Shown here: positions 13,701-39,750 of the stretch, piece by piece
Layout of the letters: every line of letters starts with the position of its first letter
Numbering within the stretch: the first letter of the stretch is position 1
Virus record (IMG/VR): IMGVR_UViG_3300032241_000811
Span: 1 to 64,000 of that record
Source: a virus
Length of the DNA stretch: 64,000 nucleotides
Reading direction: 5' to 3' (one strand)
Program-made: the position numbers and the translations under genes
The notes under the pieces: model-generated
What the model saw: only the letters and a program-made list of their open reading frames with translations
Databases searched by the model: none
What the model was told of the DNA's origin: nothing

Positions 13701-14321
13701 TCAGTTGTTATTCGTGTCCAGCTTATGTTTACATTTGGTTCCATGCCACCTTTTATAATTGCCAGGTGTTGTTATAAAACTACAATATTCACACATATAC
13801 GTTTTCTTATTGATGTGATCGAACCCGCCTTTTTTACCGTAGTTTGGATTTTTTGCGCCTAGTTTTCCTTTACGAATGTTTTCTTTAGCTAAAACGGACT
13901 TTTTTATTCCTTTAGACTTTTTTCCAAATTCCACAAAGCGCAATCGTCTATCCTCAGTTAGATTCTTTTTATGGTTGATGTTTAGTTCACCCATTTTCAT
14001 CTTTGACATTTTTTCTCTAGTGGCTTTTGTGTGATGTTTTAGAAAAAACTTTCCGTTGCCGTTGTGTTGGTTATAGAAATCCTCATTTATTCTAGCATCA
14101 ACACCCCTAAGGATACTAACTTCGAGTTTTCTTATATCCTCAAAGGATTCTTCGGCTATGATCTGTCGAGTAAAATCTTCGGGTCTTTTGTAGTATTCTT
14201 CCAACATATACTTTGAAGAACAAATATATCCATCATCTGCCGTTCCTTTATGGGAACCAACATAAAGTTTTCCTTTTTTATGGTCTGTCCAACAATAAAC
14301 GAAAGAACTATTAGTTATCAT
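13701..14321 (-). CDS. GIY-YIG homing endonuclease with NUMOD3 repeats
   Basis: GIY-YIG core is FVYCWTDHKKGKLYVGSHKG. NUMOD3-type repeats follow (TKATREKMSKMKMGELN and LGAKNPNYGKKGG), and a C-terminal zinc-finger-like CEYCSF...GNYKRWHGTKCKH ends the protein. The start overlaps the preceding zinc-ribbon gene by 11 nt, so it is probably translated by coupling rather than from its own switch. Confidence 0.88.
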   Translation of the reverse strand: MITNSSFVYCWTDHKKGKLYVGSHKGTADDGYICSSKYMLEEYYKRPEDFTRQIIAEESFEDIRKLEVSILRGVDARINEDFYNQHNGNGKFFLKHHTKATREKMSKMKMGELNINHKKNLTEDRRLRFVEFGKKSKGIKKSVLAKENIRKGKLGAKNPNYGKKGGFDHINKKTYMCEYCSFITTPGNYKRWHGTKCKHKLDTNNN

Positions 14322-30689: not shown

Positions 30690-30780
30690 GGTGAAGGTTT
30701 TTGCCTTCCTTGTCTTCTTTCAACAAGAAAGAACCTTCACCCGAAAGGTCTCCTCTATTATATTGTTTGTAACTTAGCAT
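30682..30780 (-). pseudogene. Out-of-frame N-terminus of the ligase-like gene
   Basis: Begins MLSYKQYNRGDLSGEG and ends EGKNLHLE-stop. The next gene in the other frame continues HLEDEV, matching the EGKN-x-HL-x-HLE start I recall for this family. The two frames meet at a tandem TGAATGAA (30682-30689). The start overlaps the GIY-YIG stop. It is either a recent frameshift or a recoding site. Confidence 0.6.
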
Positions 30781-31418
30781 TTTTCTATTTTCAATCCATA
30801 TCTTTTAGAATGATTTCCGTTTTTATACAGAGACTTCATAGTGGAATAGTTATATTTATACTCATCACAAAAGTCTTTTATACACTCAAATCTAACTGTA
30901 TTACCATTATCAAATACGACCTTTATTGTTTTTGCATTTGGATTATTTGCACCTTTTACTGGGGTTTTTCTGCCCCAGTTACGATTTATACTCTTTGATC
31001 CTATTTTCTTTTTTGTTTCTTCTGTGTGCTTTTTGCCATACATGGGATTTTTTGAACCAGAAATATCCGGTCTATTCCAATTTCTCATGTGCTTTCTTTC
31101 TTCTAGTGTGTACATTGACCAATAATCTTTTATGCTTTTAGAACACCCTCCGAAACCACCATAAGAAATGTTATAATAATCCTTAGATTCAACTGCTTGT
31201 AGTTTGTCGATCCATTTTTTTTCAGCCTCACACATATATTTGAATGTAGGACAATCTTCTAAAGTTACTCGTGTAAAGCTATCTTTACCATACTTTTTTA
31301 TTGCTTGTTTCAAAAGTTTTCCGGATCCTATGTATTCTTTTTCGTGCGTGTATTTGCACATACCAACATATTTTTTGCCATTTTTGTTGTTTGTCGTCAA
31401 GTATATAAATCCATACAT
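30774..31418 (-). CDS. GIY-YIG homing endonuclease
   Basis: GIY-YIG core is YGFIYLTTNNKNGKKYVGM, followed by NUMOD3-type motifs (GSKNPMYGKKHTEETKKKIG) and a C-terminal helix-turn-helix-like region. It is inserted directly upstream of the ligase-like gene. TATAAATA lies just upstream and GGAG 9 nt before ATG. A weak 6-bp repeat ACATAG/CTATGT spans the ribosome-binding site. Confidence 0.88.
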   Translation of the reverse strand: MYGFIYLTTNNKNGKKYVGMCKYTHEKEYIGSGKLLKQAIKKYGKDSFTRVTLEDCPTFKYMCEAEKKWIDKLQAVESKDYYNISYGGFGGCSKSIKDYWSMYTLEERKHMRNWNRPDISGSKNPMYGKKHTEETKKKIGSKSINRNWGRKTPVKGANNPNAKTIKVVFDNGNTVRFECIKDFCDEYKYNYSTMKSLYKNGNHSKRYGLKIEKC

Positions 31419-34012: not shown

Positions 34013-34525
34013 CTAAGCTACCTTCAGCTTACGATCTTTCTTTTGTGTCATTTGCATGATAGCATCCTTGTAGCGGTCTGCACAATAACTTGCACACCAT
34101 GCGTCTGGCTTGACCATAGGAATAACATTGCACATACCGCGAATGTATCCAACAGCTTCATTGATAACACATGAAGAACCTTCCTTGAGGTCTGGGTTGA
34201 TGTCAAGATGAATCTCAACCTCGCGCTCACCGATGATGTCAACAAGCTTCAAGTATAGTTCTGCTGTCTTCATCACCTCAGTCATCAGGCGCAAACGCGG
34301 GCGATCCTTCTGCTGGTCATAGTCACGCTCACGAGTGATTTCACCAAACACACGGCAGCCGTTCTTGCCATTTATATGGACAACAACGACATTGATGTAG
34401 TCAGCATACCAAACACCATCCATCTGGAAACGCTCGGAGTCGCCACCGATGTATACCTTTGTGTCCAGCGATTGGGTGTTTAGAAATGCTGTGAGTTCGT
34501 CTAAATCTAACTTTTTGCGTAACAT
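34013..34525 (-). CDS. RNase H-like protein, YkuK/DUF458 type
   Basis: The 170-residue protein has VYIGGDSER, INVVVVHINGKNGC, FGEITRERDYD, VEIHLDINPDLKEGSS and VKPDAWCASYCADRYK. This is the pattern of the YkuK-like, RNase H-fold family (DUF458) of unknown exact function. Ends in TAG. Confidence 0.78.
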   Translation of the reverse strand: MLRKKLDLDELTAFLNTQSLDTKVYIGGDSERFQMDGVWYADYINVVVVHINGKNGCRVFGEITRERDYDQQKDRPRLRLMTEVMKTAELYLKLVDIIGEREVEIHLDINPDLKEGSSCVINEAVGYIRGMCNVIPMVKPDAWCASYCADRYKDAIMQMTQKKDRKLKVA

Positions 34526-34961: not shown

Positions 34962-35035
34962 TGGTGCACAGAAGTAGAATCAAACTACTGTCTCCGCGTT
35001 ACGAGGGCGGCGTTATATTACTTAACTATTCGGGC
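34962..35035 (-). tRNA. tRNA-Thr (CGT), acceptor stem damaged
   Basis: Anticodon loop CTCGTAA (Thr, ACG), good T-arm and encoded CCA. The 5' acceptor strand GCCCGAA pairs only partly with TCTGTGC (five of seven, one wobble). That strand is the 3' end of the adjacent GIY-YIG gene, whose stop TAG is tRNA nucleotides 8-10. It may be nonfunctional. Confidence 0.6.
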
Positions 35036-35715
35036 ATTCTTTTATGTGTTCCAAATCTTTTTCTATCTGGAAAATGGCTGGTCAAAAACATTATTAAGGG
35101 TTTAGGGTTATTCCAACCATATTCTTTAGAAAGTAATTTTGCGTTTTCACCTGATTCATATCTCTCTAAAATTGAAGATTTGTAATTTATGCGCCTTTTA
35201 CGTAGCAGTTCTTTTTCAGTTTCAATTTTTATTTTTTGAGGGTATTTCATCGACAAAGTTTTAGATATTTTCAGTTTTGTCTCGGTTGATCTAGGAATTA
35301 CTTTATTCCATGCTAATCTTGGCTTTTTTATCTTGACTTTTTGACTCTTGAGTAAACCTTTTTCTCTTAGATTTTCTCTAAGTTTTGTTCCTCCCAGTTT
35401 ACCTCTACGCTGTCTTTCTTCTTTTGTTATCGACTGATTGATGAAACCGAATCCACCGGGCCCTCCTGGACATATATTGTAGTTTGTTTCTTTATCAGGT
35501 ACAACTAAAATCTTCTCCAAAAGATTCATGTGTTTCTCATCTTTACAGTGATGAAGAATCTCTCTATGAAAGTTCTCTATTCCATGTTTCTTTATGGAAT
35601 GATTTAGTCTCTTACCTGAGCCAAAATAACCATCGTTTAGATCATTGGTTTTATGTTTGCCGATGTAATATTTTACATTCAGTAGATTGGACGTTTTATA
35701 GATGATATAGTGCAT
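35026..35715 (-). CDS. GIY-YIG homing endonuclease inserted at tRNA-Thr
   Basis: The 229-residue protein has YIIYKTSNLLNVKYYIGKHK (GIY-YIG core), HSIKKHGIENFHREIL, and basic DNA-binding repeats. GGAG is 9 nt before the ATG but lies in a 12-bp hairpin (35721-35770) containing a late promoter. The last 10 nt overlap tRNA-Thr(CGT); the stop TAG is formed by tRNA nucleotides 8-10. This suggests insertion at the tRNA 5' end. Confidence 0.9.
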   Translation of the reverse strand: MHYIIYKTSNLLNVKYYIGKHKTNDLNDGYFGSGKRLNHSIKKHGIENFHREILHHCKDEKHMNLLEKILVVPDKETNYNICPGGPGGFGFINQSITKEERQRRGKLGGTKLRENLREKGLLKSQKVKIKKPRLAWNKVIPRSTETKLKISKTLSMKYPQKIKIETEKELLRKRRINYKSSILERYESGENAKLLSKEYGWNNPKPLIMFLTSHFPDRKRFGTHKRMPE

Positions 35716-35720
35716 TTTGG

Positions 35721-35770
35721 AAGGCTCCAGAAAATAAACCCATATAGGTTATTTATACTTCTGGAGCCTT
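35721..35770 (-). promoter_or_regulatory. RBS-sequestering hairpin with late promoter (GIY-YIG)
   Basis: Perfect 12-bp inverted repeat AAGGCTCCAGAA/TTCTGGAGCCTT (outer arms) around a second, inner imperfect stem AAATAACC/GGGTTTATT. TATAAATA (35750-35757) is inside the 5' half. GGAG in the 3' arm is the Shine-Dalgarno of the GIY-YIG gene. Shares the core TAAATAACCTATATGGG with hairpins at 39424-39474 and 39610-39652. Confidence 0.82.
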
Positions 35771-35775
35771 CGATG

Positions 35776-35846
35776 TGCTCCCAACAGGTACCGACCCTGT
35801 GTCTCAGCTTTACCAAAGCTGTGTACTACCTTTGTACTATGGGAGC
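35776..35846 (-). tRNA. tRNA-Thr (GGT), no encoded CCA
   Basis: Acceptor GCTCCCA/TGGGAGC, anticodon loop TTGGTAA, discriminator A. The expected CCA is replaced by CAT, the start of the downstream hairpin element. Confidence 0.88.
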
Positions 35847-35938
35847 GGGCTGATTAAATCTTTCCTTGAAACCATGTTTATTTTTTCTTCCGTTAAGAGA
35901 CGCTGATATTTTTTATTGATTTCTTCTTGATTTCTCAT
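35837..35938 (-). CDS. Small ORF, 33 aa, behind an expression-switch hairpin
   Basis: Begins MRNQEEINKKYQRLLTEEK, with GGAGG 6 nt before the ATG inside a 15-bp hairpin (35942-35985). Its stop TAG is nucleotides 8-10 of tRNA-Thr(GGT). It may be a remnant of a mobile gene or a small gene in its own right. No family recognised. Confidence 0.5.
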   Translation of the reverse strand: MRNQEEINKKYQRLLTEEKINMVSRKDLISPLP

Positions 35939-35941
35939 TTG

Positions 35942-35985
35942 AACCTCCACACACATTTTATACTATTTATATGTGTGTGGAGGTT
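35942..35985 (-). promoter_or_regulatory. RBS-sequestering hairpin with late promoter (33-aa ORF)
   Basis: Perfect 15-bp inverted repeat AACCTCCACACACAT/ATGTGTGTGGAGGTT. GGAGG of the 3' arm is the Shine-Dalgarno. TATAAATA is at 35964-35971 in the loop and next to the 5' arm. Confidence 0.8.
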
Positions 35986-35990
35986 TATAG

Positions 35991-36068
35991 TGGTGCGTTT
36001 GGAGGGATTCGAACCCATCACTGTACAGCTTCTAAGACTGTTGACTCCTACCGTTGGTCTACAAACGC
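35991..36068 (-). tRNA. tRNA-Leu (TAG), short variable loop
   Basis: Acceptor GCGTTTG/CAAACGC, anticodon loop CTTAGAA, encoded CCA. The T-stem has mismatches and the variable region is shorter than the long arm expected of bacterial tRNA-Leu. Confidence 0.7.
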
Positions 36069-36070
36069 AT

Positions 36071-36097
36071 GTGTCTCTACCGTTGGACTACGGGCCC
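36071..36097 (-). pseudogene. tRNA 5' fragment
   Basis: GGGCCCGTAGTCCAACGGTA is the 5' acceptor strand and D-arm of a tRNA with no matching 3' half. It abuts the complete tRNA-Leu(TAG), whose D-arm is similar. It looks like a deletion scar. Confidence 0.6.
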
Positions 36098-36104
36098 ATA
36101 AACT

Positions 36105-36178
36105 GGTTGTCGATGATGGAATCGAACCATCGGACTTCCCCATGTCAAGGGGACGTTGTACCATTCAACTAATCGACA
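36105..36178 (-). tRNA. tRNA-Val (GAC)
   Basis: Acceptor TGTCGAT/ATCGACA, anticodon loop TTGACAT on a CCCC/GGGG stem, encoded CCA. Confidence 0.9.
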
Positions 36179-36179
36179 A

Positions 36180-36255
36180 TGGTAGTCCGAGAGGGATTCG
36201 AACCCCCGACATTCTGCATGTAAAGCAGACGCAGCTACCACTGTGCTACCGGACT
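36180..36255 (-). tRNA. tRNA-Val (TAC)
   Basis: Acceptor AGTCCGG/TCGGACT, anticodon loop TTTACAT on a TCTGC/GCAGA stem, encoded CCA. Lies 1 nt from tRNA-Val(GAC). Confidence 0.92.
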
Positions 36256-36261
36256 ATATTC

Positions 36262-36336
36262 TGGAGCGGGCAACGGGAATCGAACCCGTGACTCAACCTT
36301 GGCAAGGTCATATGTTACCTCTAGAACCATGCCCGC
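36262..36336 (-). tRNA. tRNA-Gly (GCC)
   Basis: Acceptor GCGGGCA/TGCCCGC, anticodon loop TTGCCAA, encoded CCA. Confidence 0.92.
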
Positions 36337-36343
36337 AATAATT

Positions 36344-36419
36344 TGGTACCTCCGCCAAGTTTCGAACTGGGTTATCGCCCTTATGAGGAGCGCACGATGT
36401 ACAACACCGTCCCGGAGGT
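36344..36419 (-). tRNA. tRNA-Met (CAT)
   Basis: Acceptor ACCTCCG/CGGAGGT, anticodon loop CTCATAA, encoded CCA. D-arm is unusual. A CAT anticodon can also belong to tRNA-Ile read after lysidine modification; the sequence alone does not settle this. Confidence 0.8.
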
Positions 36420-36425
36420 ATATAG

Positions 36426-36500
36426 TGGTGCCTCAGAACGGAATTGAACCGCTGACACCATGCTCTTCAGGCAGACGCTCTACCACTGAACTACCGAGGC
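36426..36500 (-). tRNA. tRNA-Phe (GAA)
   Basis: Acceptor GCCTCGG/CTGAGGC, anticodon loop CTGAAGA, encoded CCA. One mismatch in the anticodon stem. Confidence 0.88.
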
Positions 36501-36507
36501 ATTATTT

Positions 36508-36582
36508 TGGAGCGAGTGGCCGGAATCGAACCGGTCCTCTACAGCTTGGAAGGCTGGGGCACCACCAATATACCACACTCGC
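36508..36582 (-). tRNA. tRNA-Gly (TCC)
   Basis: Acceptor GCGAGTG/CACTCGC, anticodon loop CTTCCAA, encoded CCA. Confidence 0.92.
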
Positions 36583-36590
36583 TTTATCTC

Positions 36591-36743
36591 TTATTCGTTT
36601 AGAAGCTGCTTTGTGCTTTCCTGTAGTTGCTGCTTGTTATGTTCGTCTAGTTTAGCAACATACTGTTCATTTGTCAAGCCATGCCAGCCAACGCAAAAAC
36701 CTGTTGGTGAACGACCGCAACCACATTTCTTTTTATCTGTCAT
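36591..36743 (-). CDS. Small Cys/His metal-binding protein, CDGSH-like
   Basis: From MTDKKKCGCGRSPTGFCVGWH: C-x-C-x7-C-x3-H, close to but not identical to the CDGSH iron-sulfur motif. A helical Gln/Glu-rich tail follows. The 50-residue gene lies inside the tRNA array and I recall similar ones in cyanophages. Confidence 0.7.
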   Translation of the reverse strand: MTDKKKCGCGRSPTGFCVGWHGLTNEQYVAKLDEHNKQQLQESTKQLLNE

Positions 36744-36760
36744 TTTCTTTTCCTTATAGA

Positions 36761-36855
36761 TGGCGGAAGAGGTAGGATTTGAACCCACGGAACCCGATGT
36801 TAGCGGGTTCTCCGGTTTTCAAGACCGGTGCAATCAGCCACTCTGCCACTCTTCC
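36761..36855 (-). tRNA. tRNA-Ser (TGA)
   Basis: Class II cloverleaf, acceptor GGAAGAG, anticodon loop CTTGAAA on CCGGT/ACCGG, long variable arm, encoded CCA. Confidence 0.93.
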
Positions 36856-36864
36856 TTATATATG

Positions 36865-37272
36865 TTAGTTTTTGATGATGGTTGCTTCAATCCGACAAAC
36901 GCCAGAACCAATGCAACCCAATAATACTGCGACATGTCTTGATAGGTCGATGTCTCTTCCCTTTACATAGGGGCCGCGATCATTTACGCGAACGATAACT
37001 GTCTTGCTGTTATGTTTCAATCTCAGTTTTGTTCCAAGTGGTAAAGTCTTGTGAGCAACCGTCAATGCGTTTGGGTTGAACTTTTCTCCGCTTGCGGTAA
37101 TCTTACTTCTGCTGCATTCACCTCTGTGTGCGCAGTCATACCATGATGCTCTCATATTGCTTGCTTGAGAGTCTTGTGTTGTTGTAAATATAATACTACA
37201 TATTACAAGAGTCTTTTGGATAATGCTTTTCGTTTTTATCAATATAGATACTCCTCTTTTTATGAGCATCAT
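36865..37272 (-). CDS. RlpA-like secreted protein (double-psi beta-barrel)
   Basis: An N-terminal signal sequence (KTLVICSIIFTTTQDSQA) is followed by SWYDCAHRGECSRSKITASG, LTVAHKTLPLGTKLRL and VRVNDRGPYVKGRDIDLS, all RlpA/DPBB signatures. Cellular RlpA proteins act on peptidoglycan at septa. Here it would be exported to the periplasm and could aid lysis or cell-wall change. A TTG 13 codons in, with GGAG upstream, is an alternative start. Confidence 0.85.
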   Translation of the reverse strand: MMLIKRGVSILIKTKSIIQKTLVICSIIFTTTQDSQASNMRASWYDCAHRGECSRSKITASGEKFNPNALTVAHKTLPLGTKLRLKHNSKTVIVRVNDRGPYVKGRDIDLSRHVAVLLGCIGSGVCRIEATIIKN

Positions 37273-37336
37273 TTTCTTCTTCCGAAAAAAACAATGTAGT
37301 TCTATTTATGGCATGACCAAACCCTTGATTTTTTAA

Positions 37337-37412
37337 TGGCGCGCCAGACAGGATTCGAACCTGCATCGGACATATAATCCACTCCAGTTACCTTTGTTCG
37401 CGTTCGTAGCGC
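37337..37412 (-). pseudogene. Degenerate tRNA-like sequence
   Basis: A normal T-arm (GCAGG TTCGAAT CCTGT), acceptor strand CTGGCGC and CCA are present. Upstream, a perfect 5-bp stem TCGCG/CGCGA holds a loop CTACGAA (anticodon ACG, Arg). The spacing between the two parts is too long for a normal variable arm, and no matching 5' acceptor is found. It is probably a fused or decayed tRNA. Confidence 0.5.
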
Positions 37413-37432
37413 GAGGGGATACTAACGCATAT

Positions 37433-37507
37433 TGGAGGAGCAAACAGGAATTGAACCTGTATTGAGGGATTTGCAGTCCCTTGCATCAGCCATTCTGCCA
37501 TTGCTCC
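37433..37507 (-). tRNA. tRNA-Cys (GCA), copy 1
   Basis: Acceptor GGAGCAA/TTTGCTCC, anticodon loop CTGCAAA, encoded CCA. Identical over its full length to the copy at 38157-38231. Confidence 0.93.
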
Positions 37508-37512
37508 GTTAT

Positions 37513-37587
37513 TGGCGACCCAAGTAGGACTCAAACCCACATCTCTTCGCTTTAGAGGCGACTGCATAATCACTCTGCCATTGGGTC
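37513..37587 (-). tRNA. Suppressor tRNA with CTA (amber) anticodon
   Basis: Acceptor GACCCAA/TTGGGTC, D-stem GCA/TGC, T-stem GTGGG/CCTAC and encoded CCA are all present. The anticodon stem is TCGC/GCGA with a canonical 7-nt loop CTCTAAA, so nucleotides 34-36 are CTA and would read UAG. The 27-43 pair is a G-A mismatch. Amino acid identity is unknown. Confidence 0.82.
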
Positions 37588-37593
37588 ATAATT

Positions 37594-37773
37594 CTATTTA
37601 TGGTTGTTAATGATTAACAATTCATTATTTCTATAGCAGATAATATAACGTGAATCTATCCAAGCCATATGTGGATTGTTTTTCACGTGCTCCATAATCT
37701 GATTATATGTTTCAAATTTTGGACCAGGAGCACTAAACTTAGTAAATGCCAGATATTCTTGTTTCATCATCAT
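37594..37773 (-). CDS. Small hypothetical protein, 59 aa
   Basis: Starts MMMKQEYLAFTKFSAPGPKF; the ATG overlaps the upstream stop (ATGA). Ends in TAG. It is third in a three-gene group between the two tRNA-Cys copies. No family recognised. Confidence 0.55.
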   Translation of the reverse strand: MMMKQEYLAFTKFSAPGPKFETYNQIMEHVKNNPHMAWIDSRYIICYRNNELLIINNHK

Positions 37774-37901
37774 AACTTTAATAATGCTTTATAGAAAAAA
37801 TCATTATGATACTTGTTGAAATACAGCGTATAATAATATCCAGGTTTAATAGGTTTGTTTTCTGGATATGTAAGCCACACTTCTTCTTGATTCATATTCA
37901 T
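37770..37901 (-). CDS. Small hypothetical protein, 43 aa
   Basis: MNMNQEEVWLTYPENKPIK; the W..YPENKP pattern recalls short DUF551-like phage proteins. Starts 8 nt after the upstream gene and couples to the next by ATGA. Confidence 0.5.
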   Translation of the reverse strand: MNMNQEEVWLTYPENKPIKPGYYYTLYFNKYHNDFFYKALLKL

Positions 37902-37908
37902 TACAAAT

Positions 37909-38139
37909 TTAATTCTTGTTATCAGTTACAGTAAAACCAAGTTCAATCAAAAAAACTCTTATCTTATCAGAAACTTCATATTCTTTATTTTGTCTATATA
38001 TATCACGAATAGCATTTAATGCCGACAATAACATTGTTATTTTATGCTTTTGATTTTCTGAATACTTAGACATTATCTGAAGTTCATTCTCTAAACGATA
38101 AATTTCATACTGTAATTCATCTTTTGTTTTGTCAGACAT
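37909..38139 (-). CDS. Small coiled-coil protein with CysRS-tail-like end
   Basis: The 76-residue protein has an N-terminal coiled coil and ends YEVSDKIRVFLIELGFTVTD, which resembles the ADxIRxxLxxxGxxLxD tail of cysteinyl-tRNA synthetase. It is directly downstream of a tRNA-Cys gene. AGGA Shine-Dalgarno present. The resemblance is short and may be chance. Confidence 0.6.
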   Translation of the reverse strand: MSDKTKDELQYEIYRLENELQIMSKYSENQKHKITMLLSALNAIRDIYRQNKEYEVSDKIRVFLIELGFTVTDNKN

Positions 38140-38156
38140 AACAAATTCCTAAAAAA

Positions 38157-38231
38157 TGGAGGAGCAAACAGGAATTGAACCTGTATTGAGGGATTTGCAG
38201 TCCCTTGCATCAGCCATTCTGCCATTGCTCC
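38157..38231 (-). tRNA. tRNA-Cys (GCA), copy 2
   Basis: Identical to the copy at 37433-37507; the two enclose the suppressor tRNA and three small genes. Confidence 0.93.
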
Positions 38232-38239
38232 GTAAACAC

Positions 38240-38313
38240 TGGTGCTCCCACAGGGAATTGAACCCCGAATTGATGATTACAAATCAACTGTTATACCTTT
38301 TAACTATAGGAGC
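38240..38313 (-). tRNA. tRNA-Thr (TGT)
   Basis: Acceptor GCTCCTA/TGGGAGC, anticodon loop TTTGTAA, encoded CCA. Confidence 0.88.
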
Positions 38314-38324
38314 ATTTATAAAAT

Positions 38325-38401
38325 TGGCTGCTCGGGTAGGGATCGAACCTACGACATCCTGATTAACAGTCAGGCGCAACTACCGGCTGTGCTACCGAGC
38401 A
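38325..38401 (-). tRNA. tRNA-Asn (GTT)
   Basis: Acceptor TGCTCGG/CCGAGCA, anticodon loop CTGTTAA on a CTGA/TCAG stem, encoded CCA. Confidence 0.92.
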
Positions 38402-38461
38402 ATGAATTTCGCTCCGATTTCTTATAGTGGTTACGGCCTCCACTTATTTGCCTATGTTGTT

Positions 38462-38490
38462 ATTCTAGACTATTACACAGGCTAAGTCAA
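38462..38490 (-). promoter_or_regulatory. Sigma70-type promoter within the tRNA array
   Basis: TTGACT (38485-38490), 17-bp spacer, TAGAAT (38462-38467), reading into tRNA-Asn, Thr and Cys. The rest of 38402-38498 holds no gene I can see. Confidence 0.65.
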
Positions 38491-38498
38491 GCCCTATT

Positions 38499-38573
38499 TG
38501 GCTGCCCGTCATGGAATCGAACCACTGTAACAGGTTCCACAAACCTGCGTTCTACCATTGAACTAAAACGGAG
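38499..38573 (-). tRNA. tRNA-His (GTG), weak acceptor
   Basis: Anticodon loop TTGTGGA on CAGGT/ACCTG, D-stem GTTC/GAAC, encoded CCA. The 5' acceptor pairs imperfectly with the 3' strand, so it may be partly decayed. It abuts tRNA-Glu directly. Confidence 0.75.
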
Positions 38574-38648
38574 TGGTAGTCCCAGAGGGAATCAAACCCT
38601 CATCTCCGCCTTGAAAGGGCAGCGATCTAATCACTAATCTATGGGACC
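38574..38648 (-). tRNA. tRNA-Glu (TTC)
   Basis: Acceptor GGTCCCA/TGGGACT, anticodon loop CTTTCAA, encoded CCA. Confidence 0.9.
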
Positions 38649-38654
38649 GTTGTT

Positions 38655-38731
38655 TGGATGCGGGAGGAAGATTTGCACTTCCGATCTCCGACTTATGAGG
38701 CCGGTGAGATAGTCTGCTTCTCTATCCCGCA
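38655..38731 (-). tRNA. tRNA-Met (CAT), second
   Basis: Acceptor TGCGGGA/TCCCGCA, anticodon loop CTCATAA, D-stem GAGA/TCTC, encoded CCA. T-loop TGCAAAT is noncanonical. Met or Ile2 identity not resolved. Confidence 0.82.
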
Positions 38732-38737
38732 ATAATT

Positions 38738-38812
38738 TGGAGGACGCAATGGGATTCGAACCCATGACTTACGGTTTAAAAGACCGCTACTCTACCACTG
38801 AGTTATGCGTCC
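38738..38812 (-). tRNA. tRNA-Lys (TTT)
   Basis: Acceptor GGACGCA/TGCGTCC, anticodon loop CTTTTAA on CGGT/ACCG, encoded CCA. Confidence 0.93.
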
Positions 38813-38816
38813 ATAA

Positions 38817-38890
38817 TGGCTGGGAGACAGGGACTCGAACCCCAATATACGGAATCAAAATCCGCAGTCCTACCATTAGACGATCTCCCA
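38817..38890 (-). tRNA. tRNA-Gln (TTG)
   Basis: Acceptor TGGGAGA/TCTCCCA, anticodon loop TTTTGAT on CGGA/TCCG, encoded CCA. Confidence 0.92.
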
Positions 38891-38893
38891 ATA

Positions 38894-39271
38894 TTATTGT
38901 GAAAGTCTCTTTGCTTTAGCTTCTGCTGAGACTGACTCAAATAGGTTCATGTTGTCATGGACTCTCTTGACATCTTCTTCTACATTTGGATTGTAGTCTT
39001 TGAAGTTGTCGCCGTGACCGAGCAAGAGATGGCACTCTTTGTCCATGCACAAAGTAATAAGATTTGTTGGTTCAAGTTCTAATTCAGGAAACAAGTGGAA
39101 CGGCTTCTTGTGATGCACATTCAGCTTCTTGTCTGAACCGCAGCAAGCACATACTGGTTGTTCTTTTAGGTGTGCGTGTTCTACTGCTGGCCAATGAGGG
39201 CTGCGCGGCTTTTCAATGCCTGCTGCATCGTCTCTGTTGGCTGCGACTGATAAATCTTTCTTCTGTGTCAT
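38894..39271 (-). CDS. HNH endonuclease
   Basis: The 125-residue protein has CACCGSDKKLNVHHKKPFH (zinc Cys pair and HH of the HNH motif), LEPTNLITLCMDKECHLLLG and a second Cys set. This is a common stand-alone HNH nuclease type. GGAG, 9 nt before ATG, lies in an 8-bp hairpin with CATAAATA beside it, so late expression is likely. It sits among tRNA genes next to a tRNA-Ile half. Confidence 0.85.
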   Translation of the reverse strand: MTQKKDLSVAANRDDAAGIEKPRSPHWPAVEHAHLKEQPVCACCGSDKKLNVHHKKPFHLFPELELEPTNLITLCMDKECHLLLGHGDNFKDYNPNVEEDVKRVHDNMNLFESVSAEAKAKRLSQ

Positions 39272-39274
39272 ATC

Positions 39275-39303
39275 AATACTCCTTGGTTGACGGAGTATTT
39301 ATG
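39275..39303 (-). promoter_or_regulatory. RBS-sequestering hairpin with late promoter (HNH gene)
   Basis: AATACTCC/GGAGTATT 8-bp stem with a 9-nt loop (39275-39299); GGAG of the 3' arm is the HNH Shine-Dalgarno. CATAAATA (39296-39303) overlaps the 5' arm. Confidence 0.7.
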
Positions 39304-39307
39304 AAAT

Positions 39308-39352
39308 TGGTACTAGCGGGTGGGATCGAACCACCTACCACACGGTTATCAG
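39308..39352 (-). pseudogene. tRNA-Ile (GAT) 3' half
   Basis: Loop CTGATAA, T-arm GGTGG TTCGATC CCACC, acceptor strand CGCTAGT and CCA are intact. The 5' acceptor, D-arm and 5' anticodon stem are absent and replaced by GIY-YIG coding sequence. Confidence 0.75.
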
Positions 39353-39423
39353 TTTGATGTTTACCTATGTAGAATTTTTGATTTATTTTGTTAGTAATAT
39401 GATAGATAGTGTAGAACATTTAG

Positions 39424-39474
39424 AGAATCCGATTTGTATAAGCCCATATAGGTTATTTATACAAATCGGATTCT
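39424..39474 (-). promoter_or_regulatory. Late-promoter hairpin (GIY-YIG fragment)
   Basis: Inverted repeat of 18 bp, AGAATCCGATTTGTATAA and its complement, around the core ATAACCTATATGGG. TATAAATA is at 39454-39461. Starts 5 nt beyond the discriminator of tRNA-Pro. GGA in the 3' arm is a weak Shine-Dalgarno. Confidence 0.75.
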
Positions 39475-39478
39475 GATG

Positions 39479-39554
39479 TCAGCGTAGATGGATTTGAACC
39501 ATCGGTCTCCTGCTCCCAAGGCAGGCGGATTAAACCATACTTTCCCACACGCTG
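39479..39554 (-). tRNA. tRNA-Pro (TGG), no encoded CCA
   Basis: Acceptor CAGCGTG/TACGCTG, anticodon loop CTTGGGA on CCTGC/GCAGG. Discriminator A is followed by CAT instead of CCA, the start of the hairpin element. Confidence 0.85.
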
Positions 39555-39560
39555 TTATTC

Positions 39561-39609
39561 TGGCGACCCATAGCGGTTACGATCCGCTGACACATCTTAG
39601 ACAGAGAAG
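39561..39609 (-). pseudogene. tRNA-Asp (GTC) 3' part
   Basis: Anticodon loop CTGTCTA with four of five stem pairs, a T-arm AGCGG ATCGTAA CCGCT and acceptor ATGGGTC with CCA. The 5' acceptor and D-arm are missing; a hairpin ending in GGAGG lies in their place. Confidence 0.65.
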
Positions 39610-39652
39610 CCTCCGAATACTAAACCCATATAGGTTATTTAGTAAACGGAGG
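39610..39652 (-). promoter_or_regulatory. Orphan late-promoter-type hairpin
   Basis: CCTCCG/CGGAGG outer stem with ACTAAATAACC/GGGTTTAGT inside. It shares AAATAACCTATATGGG with the hairpins at 35721 and 39424. The late promoter is degenerate (CTAAATA). GGAGG remains but no endonuclease frame follows, only tRNA-Asp. Confidence 0.65.
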
Positions 39653-39661
39653 ACTTCAATG

Positions 39662-39750
39662 TAGGCGTGTAGGGACTCGAACCCTAGCGAGAACACCGAT
39701 CTAGTGCTAAAGGGATTATAAGGCCCTCCGGTATACCTATACTCACGCCT
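39662..39750 (-). tRNA. Class II tRNA with TAT anticodon loop (Leu-like)
   Basis: Acceptor AGGCGTG/CACGCCT, long variable arm, T-arm TAGGG TTCGAGT CCCTA. Loop CTTATAA gives anticodon TAT (AUA, Ile), yet the long variable arm is typical of Leu. One A-to-T change from CTTAAAA (Leu TAA) would explain it. CCA is replaced by CAT. Identity and function uncertain. Confidence 0.6.

Follow-up and report, generated by a model that had tools for sequence, protein, structure and literature searches.

Half tRNAs and SegB-like homing cassettes at tRNA CCA tails in the tRNA cluster of a viral contig

How does a viral tRNA cluster come to hold half tRNA genes beside more or less complete homing endonuclease genes, and tRNA genes whose encoded 3' end reads CAT in place of CCA? 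The question is raised by IMG/VR record IMGVR_UViG_3300032241_000811, positions 1 to 64,000 (the 64,000-nt stretch analyzed here, called the window), which belongs to a viral contig of 109,580 bp whose gene content looks T4-like from the open reading frames (ORFs) we read. The tRNA cluster lies at 33.5-40.1 kb on the minus strand and comprises 24 tRNAs by ARAGORN, with no call for tRNA-Asp or tRNA-Ile(GAT) in the window; no tRNA was found in the remaining 45.6 kb of the contig, outside the window. All cluster features described here are on the minus strand and are read from high to low coordinates. The cluster very probably contains three copies of a mobile cassette, made of a late-promoter hairpin and a SegB-like GIY-YIG gene, two of which would have collapsed by deletion and left half tRNAs.

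Two sets of relatives, referred to by L-numbers for their loci, were collected for comparison. The neighboring gene at 34013-34525 was used as a query against viral contigs and gave 80 loci, with protein identity up to 77%, and three GIY-YIG proteins as queries gave 80 further loci. A megablast search for close named relatives returned nothing useful, and blastn with the tRNA stretch returned single tRNAs only.

The intact copy lies between two threonine tRNAs. tRNA-Thr(GGT) (35775..35846) ends in A73-C74 joined to the AT of the element, without CCA, and directly after C74 starts a 59-nt leader (35716..35774) with the late promoter TATAAATA in a hairpin and a Shine-Dalgarno sequence in its 3' arm. 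The gene that follows (35026..35715) encodes a 229-aa product with the GIY-YIG motif YIIYKT...YYIGKH. This product scores 25.6 bits against Pfam SegE_GIY-YIG, just over the cut-off of 25, and matches phrog_314 at 3.2e-32, while its homolog in L043 matches T4 SegB, the relative that is best characterized, at 37.8% identity. By sequence, its predicted catalytic domain is the SegB-type GIY-YIG domain of the Seg group. Notwithstanding a strict ORF pattern, 36 of the 80 best relatives are located directly behind a tRNA. The Thr-Thr site is empty in L024 and L051, which together with further empty and filled pairs elsewhere points to mobility.

The initial annotation had noted that the three tRNAs preceding the elements, tRNA-Thr(GGT), tRNA-Pro, and the tRNA with a TAT anticodon, end in CAT, and we read N73-CAT in each. 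GIY-YIG genes in relatives commonly start ~58-70 nt behind a tRNA, and we counted tRNAs with such a gene 45-75 nt behind, allowing for the acceptor-stem register. N73-CAT in place of N73-CCA was found in 42/51 of these tRNAs, covering 16 isotypes, compared to 6/1,397 other tRNAs; four of the six exceptions (L008, L202, L238, and L240) are joined to an element or resemble its remains. Fisher's test gives 1.6e-65, a value that overstates the case since related phages are not independent, and the isotype spread stands irrespective of it. The proposal that the elements sit at tRNA borders and that the CCA change is tied to them is borne out in the relatives.

Empty and filled sites were then compared for five tRNA types: Asp, Met (L035 and L048), Trp (L241/L043 and L198), Glu (L027 and L197), and Thr (L024/L051 and the window). 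For Asp, the empty site of L198 reads GGTCGC/CAATTCTAAAG and the filled site of L043 reads GGTCGC/ATTGAAG...GGTAGAA/AATTCTAAAG, where slashes mark the borders. In all five pairs, the left end of the element follows C74 and the right end is at or next to the border between CCA and spacer. Coliphages give a similar picture: BECP11 and NIC06P2 have no segB at that tRNA and encode CCA, while JEP6 and T4 have segB and read N73/TAT without CCA. These comparisons place the insertion at the tRNA CCA tail, and cassettes stand at the tails of many different tRNA genes in the window and in dozens of relatives. In RB69 (L276 1046-1110), a tRNA-Met/Ile also reads N73/TAT without CCA, with no segB there; this is possibly the scar of a lost segB.

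The CAT tail could also be held by selection, such as for self-protection from the phage's own enzyme or for processing beside the hairpin. The tail is nearly invariant across the 16 isotypes, and homing endonucleases normally destroy their own site on insertion, both of which would fit. However, the empty and filled pairs put the junction itself at that point, so selection is not needed to explain CAT, and we consider this explanation possible but doubtful. A selected CAT and a fixed insertion point are also compatible ideas.

The three cassette hairpins in the window are much more stable than their shuffles (z -7.0, -7.7, and -5.1). Each has a T4-type late promoter near the loop (TATAAATA, or ACTAAATA in the third) and a would-be Shine-Dalgarno site in its 3' arm. 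We collected 47 distinct leaders and aligned 30 of them for covariation, where double changes occur at 10/10 helix pairs and 83% of cells are paired, compared to 57% in shuffles and <=56% when the alignment is slid. Both the sequence and this covariation argue for a late promoter combined with a hairpin that would cover the ribosome site. This layout, with the late promoter in a hairpin and a hidden Shine-Dalgarno sequence, has been described for I-TevI, SegB, and MobE (PMC2988022). A search of viral contigs with the DNA pattern of the window's promoter hairpin gave one chance match, within an ORF. An identical 59-nt leader is found behind tRNA-Glu in L041 and tRNA-Trp in L198, and each of these loci keeps CCA on the tRNA that is the other's target, which argues that the cassette moves between tRNAs.

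At its far end, the endonuclease ORF overlaps the 5' end of tRNA-Thr(CGT) (34962..35035) by 10 nt. This 5' end consists of the last codons of the gene and its TAG stop, at tRNA positions 8-10, and the acceptor stem GCCCGAA/TCTGTGC has two mismatches but is well paired in relatives. The overlap and the imperfect acceptor had been reported before. The two mismatches are absent in relatives, but the overlap alone does not speak for damage: 23 of 84 distinct GIY-YIG ORFs stop within the next tRNA, roughly a dozen of them on the codon at tRNA positions 8-10, usually TAG, and in L043, L048, and L198 the stop is supplied by spacer or tRNA. Because ending on U8-A9-G10 recurs in the SegB-like family, the overlap with Thr(CGT) appears from these comparisons to be a habit of the family rather than clear damage. 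As for a donor of the altered 5' strand of Thr(CGT), GCCCGAATAG was common only to Leu(CAA) genes, which are unrelated.

The second copy is truncated. Directly after C74 of tRNA-Pro(TGG) (39478..39554), which has CAT in place of CCA, there is a 58-nt leader hairpin with a late promoter (39420..39477), followed by the first ~25 codons of a GIY-YIG gene (39346..39419). The truncated ORF (from 39419 downward) has an intact start and matches phrog_314 at 7.8e-9. It is cut off at IGKHQTD and fused to the 3' half of a tRNA-Ile(GAT), from anticodon loop to CCA (39308..39352), identified by its GAT loop and by a syntenic intact Ile(gat) in relatives; CTGATAAC is assignable to either side of this junction. 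An HNH gene (38894-39271) lies behind the Ile half.

The third copy has lost its gene. The tRNA with a TAT anticodon and a long variable arm (39661..39750) is the ortholog of the "Ile(tat)" of relatives and also carries CAT in place of CCA. Its leader hairpin (39605..39660), in which ACTAAATA replaces TATAAATA, is joined to the 3' part of a tRNA-Asp(GTC), from anticodon loop to CCA (39561..39604), recognized by sequence match: 43/44 nt are identical to positions 31-74 of the intact tRNA-Asp in L024/L047/L051. Both of these fusions had been recognized in the initial annotation. The two halves begin at the anticodon loop, with breakpoints at its 5' edge, and both have a sound T arm and keep CCA. 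The TAT-anticodon tRNA is itself unusual for an isoleucine tRNA, with a variable arm of class-II type that is conserved in many relatives.

Gene order indicates what is absent. Many relatives have the order Ile(tat) Leu(caa) Asn Lys(ctt) Asp Pro Trp Ala (Thr) Tyr Ile(gat) Gln, with intact tRNA-Asp and tRNA-Ile(GAT) at the same places, as the suggested comparison with relatives was meant to establish. The window has the TAT-tRNA, leader, 3' Asp, Pro, leader and gene fragment, 3' Ile, HNH gene, and Gln. Missing are Leu(caa), Asn, Lys(ctt), and the 5' part of Asp between the leader of the TAT-tRNA and the Asp half, and Trp, Ala, Tyr, and the 5' part of Ile between the Pro-side gene fragment and the Ile half. 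Asn and Thr(tgt) tRNAs are present elsewhere in the cluster. Independent decay without tRNA halves is seen in L202, with a leader and four codons beside tRNA-Lys, and in L238, with a leader alone. The proposed series from intact element to remnant therefore exists, also outside the window, but its "bare scar" is not simple loss of an element, because each half marks the distal end of a deletion that took out whole tRNAs too.

The initial annotation had the endonucleases cutting into the Asp and Ile tRNAs by insertion. Elements inserted straight into the anticodon loops, in the manner of group I introns or integrases and with later loss of the 5' halves, would account for both breakpoints being at the 5' edge of the loop. 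However, every insertion point resolved in relatives is a CCA tail, the elements in the window follow full-length Pro and TAT tRNAs and are joined to them at the CCA tail in the same way, and a deletion is needed anyway for the missing tRNAs in between, making direct insertion very unlikely. Although the window comes from a single contig, assembly artifacts of the metagenome are highly improbable, given two different junctions with the same logic, the synteny with relatives, and the independent scars of L202 and L238 in other samples. Split tRNA genes whose products would be completed in trans by 5' halves from another locus are hardly credible despite the sound T arms, the CCA ends, and the unusual conservation of the Asp half (43/44), since no 5' half with a matching acceptor and D arm was found in the 109,580-bp contig, which may be incomplete, and the sole 5' half seen (36070-36103) resembles tRNA-Leu and forms no pairing with the 3' halves.

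Several points weigh against our reading of CCA-tail insertion followed by deletion. The T4 SegB junction is N73/TAT and the one here is N73-C/AT, and the junction therefore differs by one base between subfamilies. Since some letters are common to element and spacer, loss of A76 is uncertain for some pairs, and in the Met pair, CCA may persist on the right side in L048. The Ile half resembles relatives less closely than the Asp half does and is therefore identified mostly by synteny and anticodon loop. Microhomology at the Asp junction is short (~2 bp). At the Ile junction it could extend to CTGATAAC, but only for a lost gene that read ...HQTDN; in one homolog, KHQT is followed by the codon pair GATAAT. 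Random deletion also does not predict that both breakpoints fall at the anticodon loop.

The cassette composition, junctions, synteny, and covariation are seen in the sequences, while the enzyme action, the repair route, and tRNA maturation are inferred. The 5' end of the cassette directly follows C74, in place of C75 and roughly A76, and the cassette gene extends to the next spacer or tRNA, from which its stop codon comes in whole or in part. The upstream tRNA may remain usable, since its end can be trimmed and CCA restored by host enzymes. As with T4 I-TevI and SegB, the hairpin would hide the ribosome site on transcripts reading through the tRNA cluster, while late transcripts would begin in the loop and free it. 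The Thr-Thr copy is intact, and the Pro and TAT copies would each have undergone a deletion from within the cassette to the anticodon loop of a downstream tRNA, with loss of the remaining gene sequence, several complete tRNAs, and the 5' half of either tRNA-Ile(GAT) or tRNA-Asp(GTC). The likely route is a break in the tRNA array, perhaps made by the enzyme itself, and then repair at a few shared bases. The half tRNAs would be dead remnants.

SegB of T6 offers a precedent. It breaks the tRNA array, with breaks that lie within tRNA genes, and amplification units join a tRNA 5' end and a segB 3' end at microhomology (PMC13096335). Its in vitro motif is RAWTSGAAC (PMC13096335), and read on the opposite strand this gives GTTCSAWTY, a T-loop sequence; T-loop or T-arm wording is absent from the main text of that paper, and the T-loop reading is that of the present analysis. 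GTTCSAWTY is present in 631/1,281 tRNAs of the loci examined, most commonly at a distance of 15 nt to the 3' end. By analogy, deletion would be the expected counterpart of T6 amplification, with the enzyme as its presumed cause here. We lean, by a little, towards a broader view in which the CCA tail is a dedicated insertion site of widespread phage homing cassettes, whose stop is often borrowed and whose activity reshapes tRNA sets by deletion and amplification. The spread over nearly all isotypes could then be explained because the probably recognized T loop is shared and the host rebuilds CCA.

Phage and island integrases prefer tRNA genes as targets and usually restore the tRNA 3' end. In contrast, CCA is lost with the cassettes described here and would need post-transcriptional addition. 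The closest known system is the SegB locus of T4/T6, which also has a free-standing GIY-YIG gene in a tRNA cluster, directly behind a tRNA without CCA and with the next tRNA close, and a predicted late promoter with a hairpin over the ribosome site (PMC2988022). It differs in protein sequence (37.8% identity for the L043 homolog) and in junction (N73/TAT in T4, N73-C74/AT here), and the window has several copies per cluster and deletion scars with half tRNAs. Whereas T6 SegB amplification is a tandem gain under selection (PMC13096335), the natural products here are deletions. The leaders of I-TevI, I-TevII, I-TevIII, and Aeh1 MobE similarly place a late promoter within a hairpin, by which the Shine-Dalgarno sequence of read-through transcripts is masked (PMC2988022), but these genes are intron-encoded or beside nrd genes and not fused to a tRNA end.

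The linkage of SegB and tRNAs is already known (T4; Nat Commun 2026), and segB genes have been linked to many tRNA isotypes (PMC13096335), with no mention of CCA in the main text of that paper. In the open-licence full texts searched, we did not find the CCA-tail rule, the borrowed stop, or the deletion scars, nor any publication that ties the loss of CCA from tRNAs to homing endonucleases; the first T4 SegB paper is outside these and may note CCA. Insertion at the tail offers a simple reason for phage tRNAs without encoded CCA, including the T4 tRNA before segB, and names a site through which an element may invade a tRNA gene with little harm to the phage that carries it. The scars would provide natural deletion products to compare with SegB-driven laboratory amplification. 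How phages gain and lose tRNAs, a process now connected with escape from tRNA-cutting defenses, could be tested through one enzyme family.

The cluster has additional features of this kind. A fourth late-promoter hairpin of unrelated sequence (35935..35990) is located behind tRNA-Leu(TAG), which keeps CCA. It is followed by a 33-codon ORF (35837..35938) that ends on the TAG at positions 8-10 of tRNA-Thr(GGT); this ORF probably belongs to another cassette, as a remnant or a small gene, and no convincing relative of it was found. TAG thus ends both this ORF and the GIY-YIG gene, and the window encodes a tRNA with a CTA anticodon, of amber-suppressor type (37513-37587), also seen in L043, L080, L097, and L100, with which read-through is conceivable. 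The Leu-like 5' half at 36070-36103 (GGGCCCGTAGTCCAACGGTAGAGACA) is joined directly to the 5' end of tRNA-Leu(TAG) and matches the Leu(tag) of L035 over 21 nt.

A tRNA-like RNA with an ACG anticodon loop (CTACGAA) is encoded at 37340-37428. It was missed by ARAGORN and scores 27.6 bits against Rfam tRNA (threshold 29). The acceptor changes but remains paired, the D arm is absent, and between the anticodon and T arms lies an insert that contains the motif AAGGTAACTGGA and a hairpin. This RNA is conserved in L025, L028, L032, L040, L048, L057, L062, L109, L197, L216, and L262, and other relatives have a normal tRNA-Arg(ACG) in the same part of the cluster. Two apparently identical copies of tRNA-Cys(GCA) lie ~0.7 kb apart (37433-37507 and 38157-38231, both 64.7 bits). 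Outside the cluster, the window has two more GIY-YIG/NUMOD3 homing endonuclease genes that are not beside tRNAs, 13701-14321 and 30774-31418 (-), the latter with the late promoter TATAAATA just upstream.

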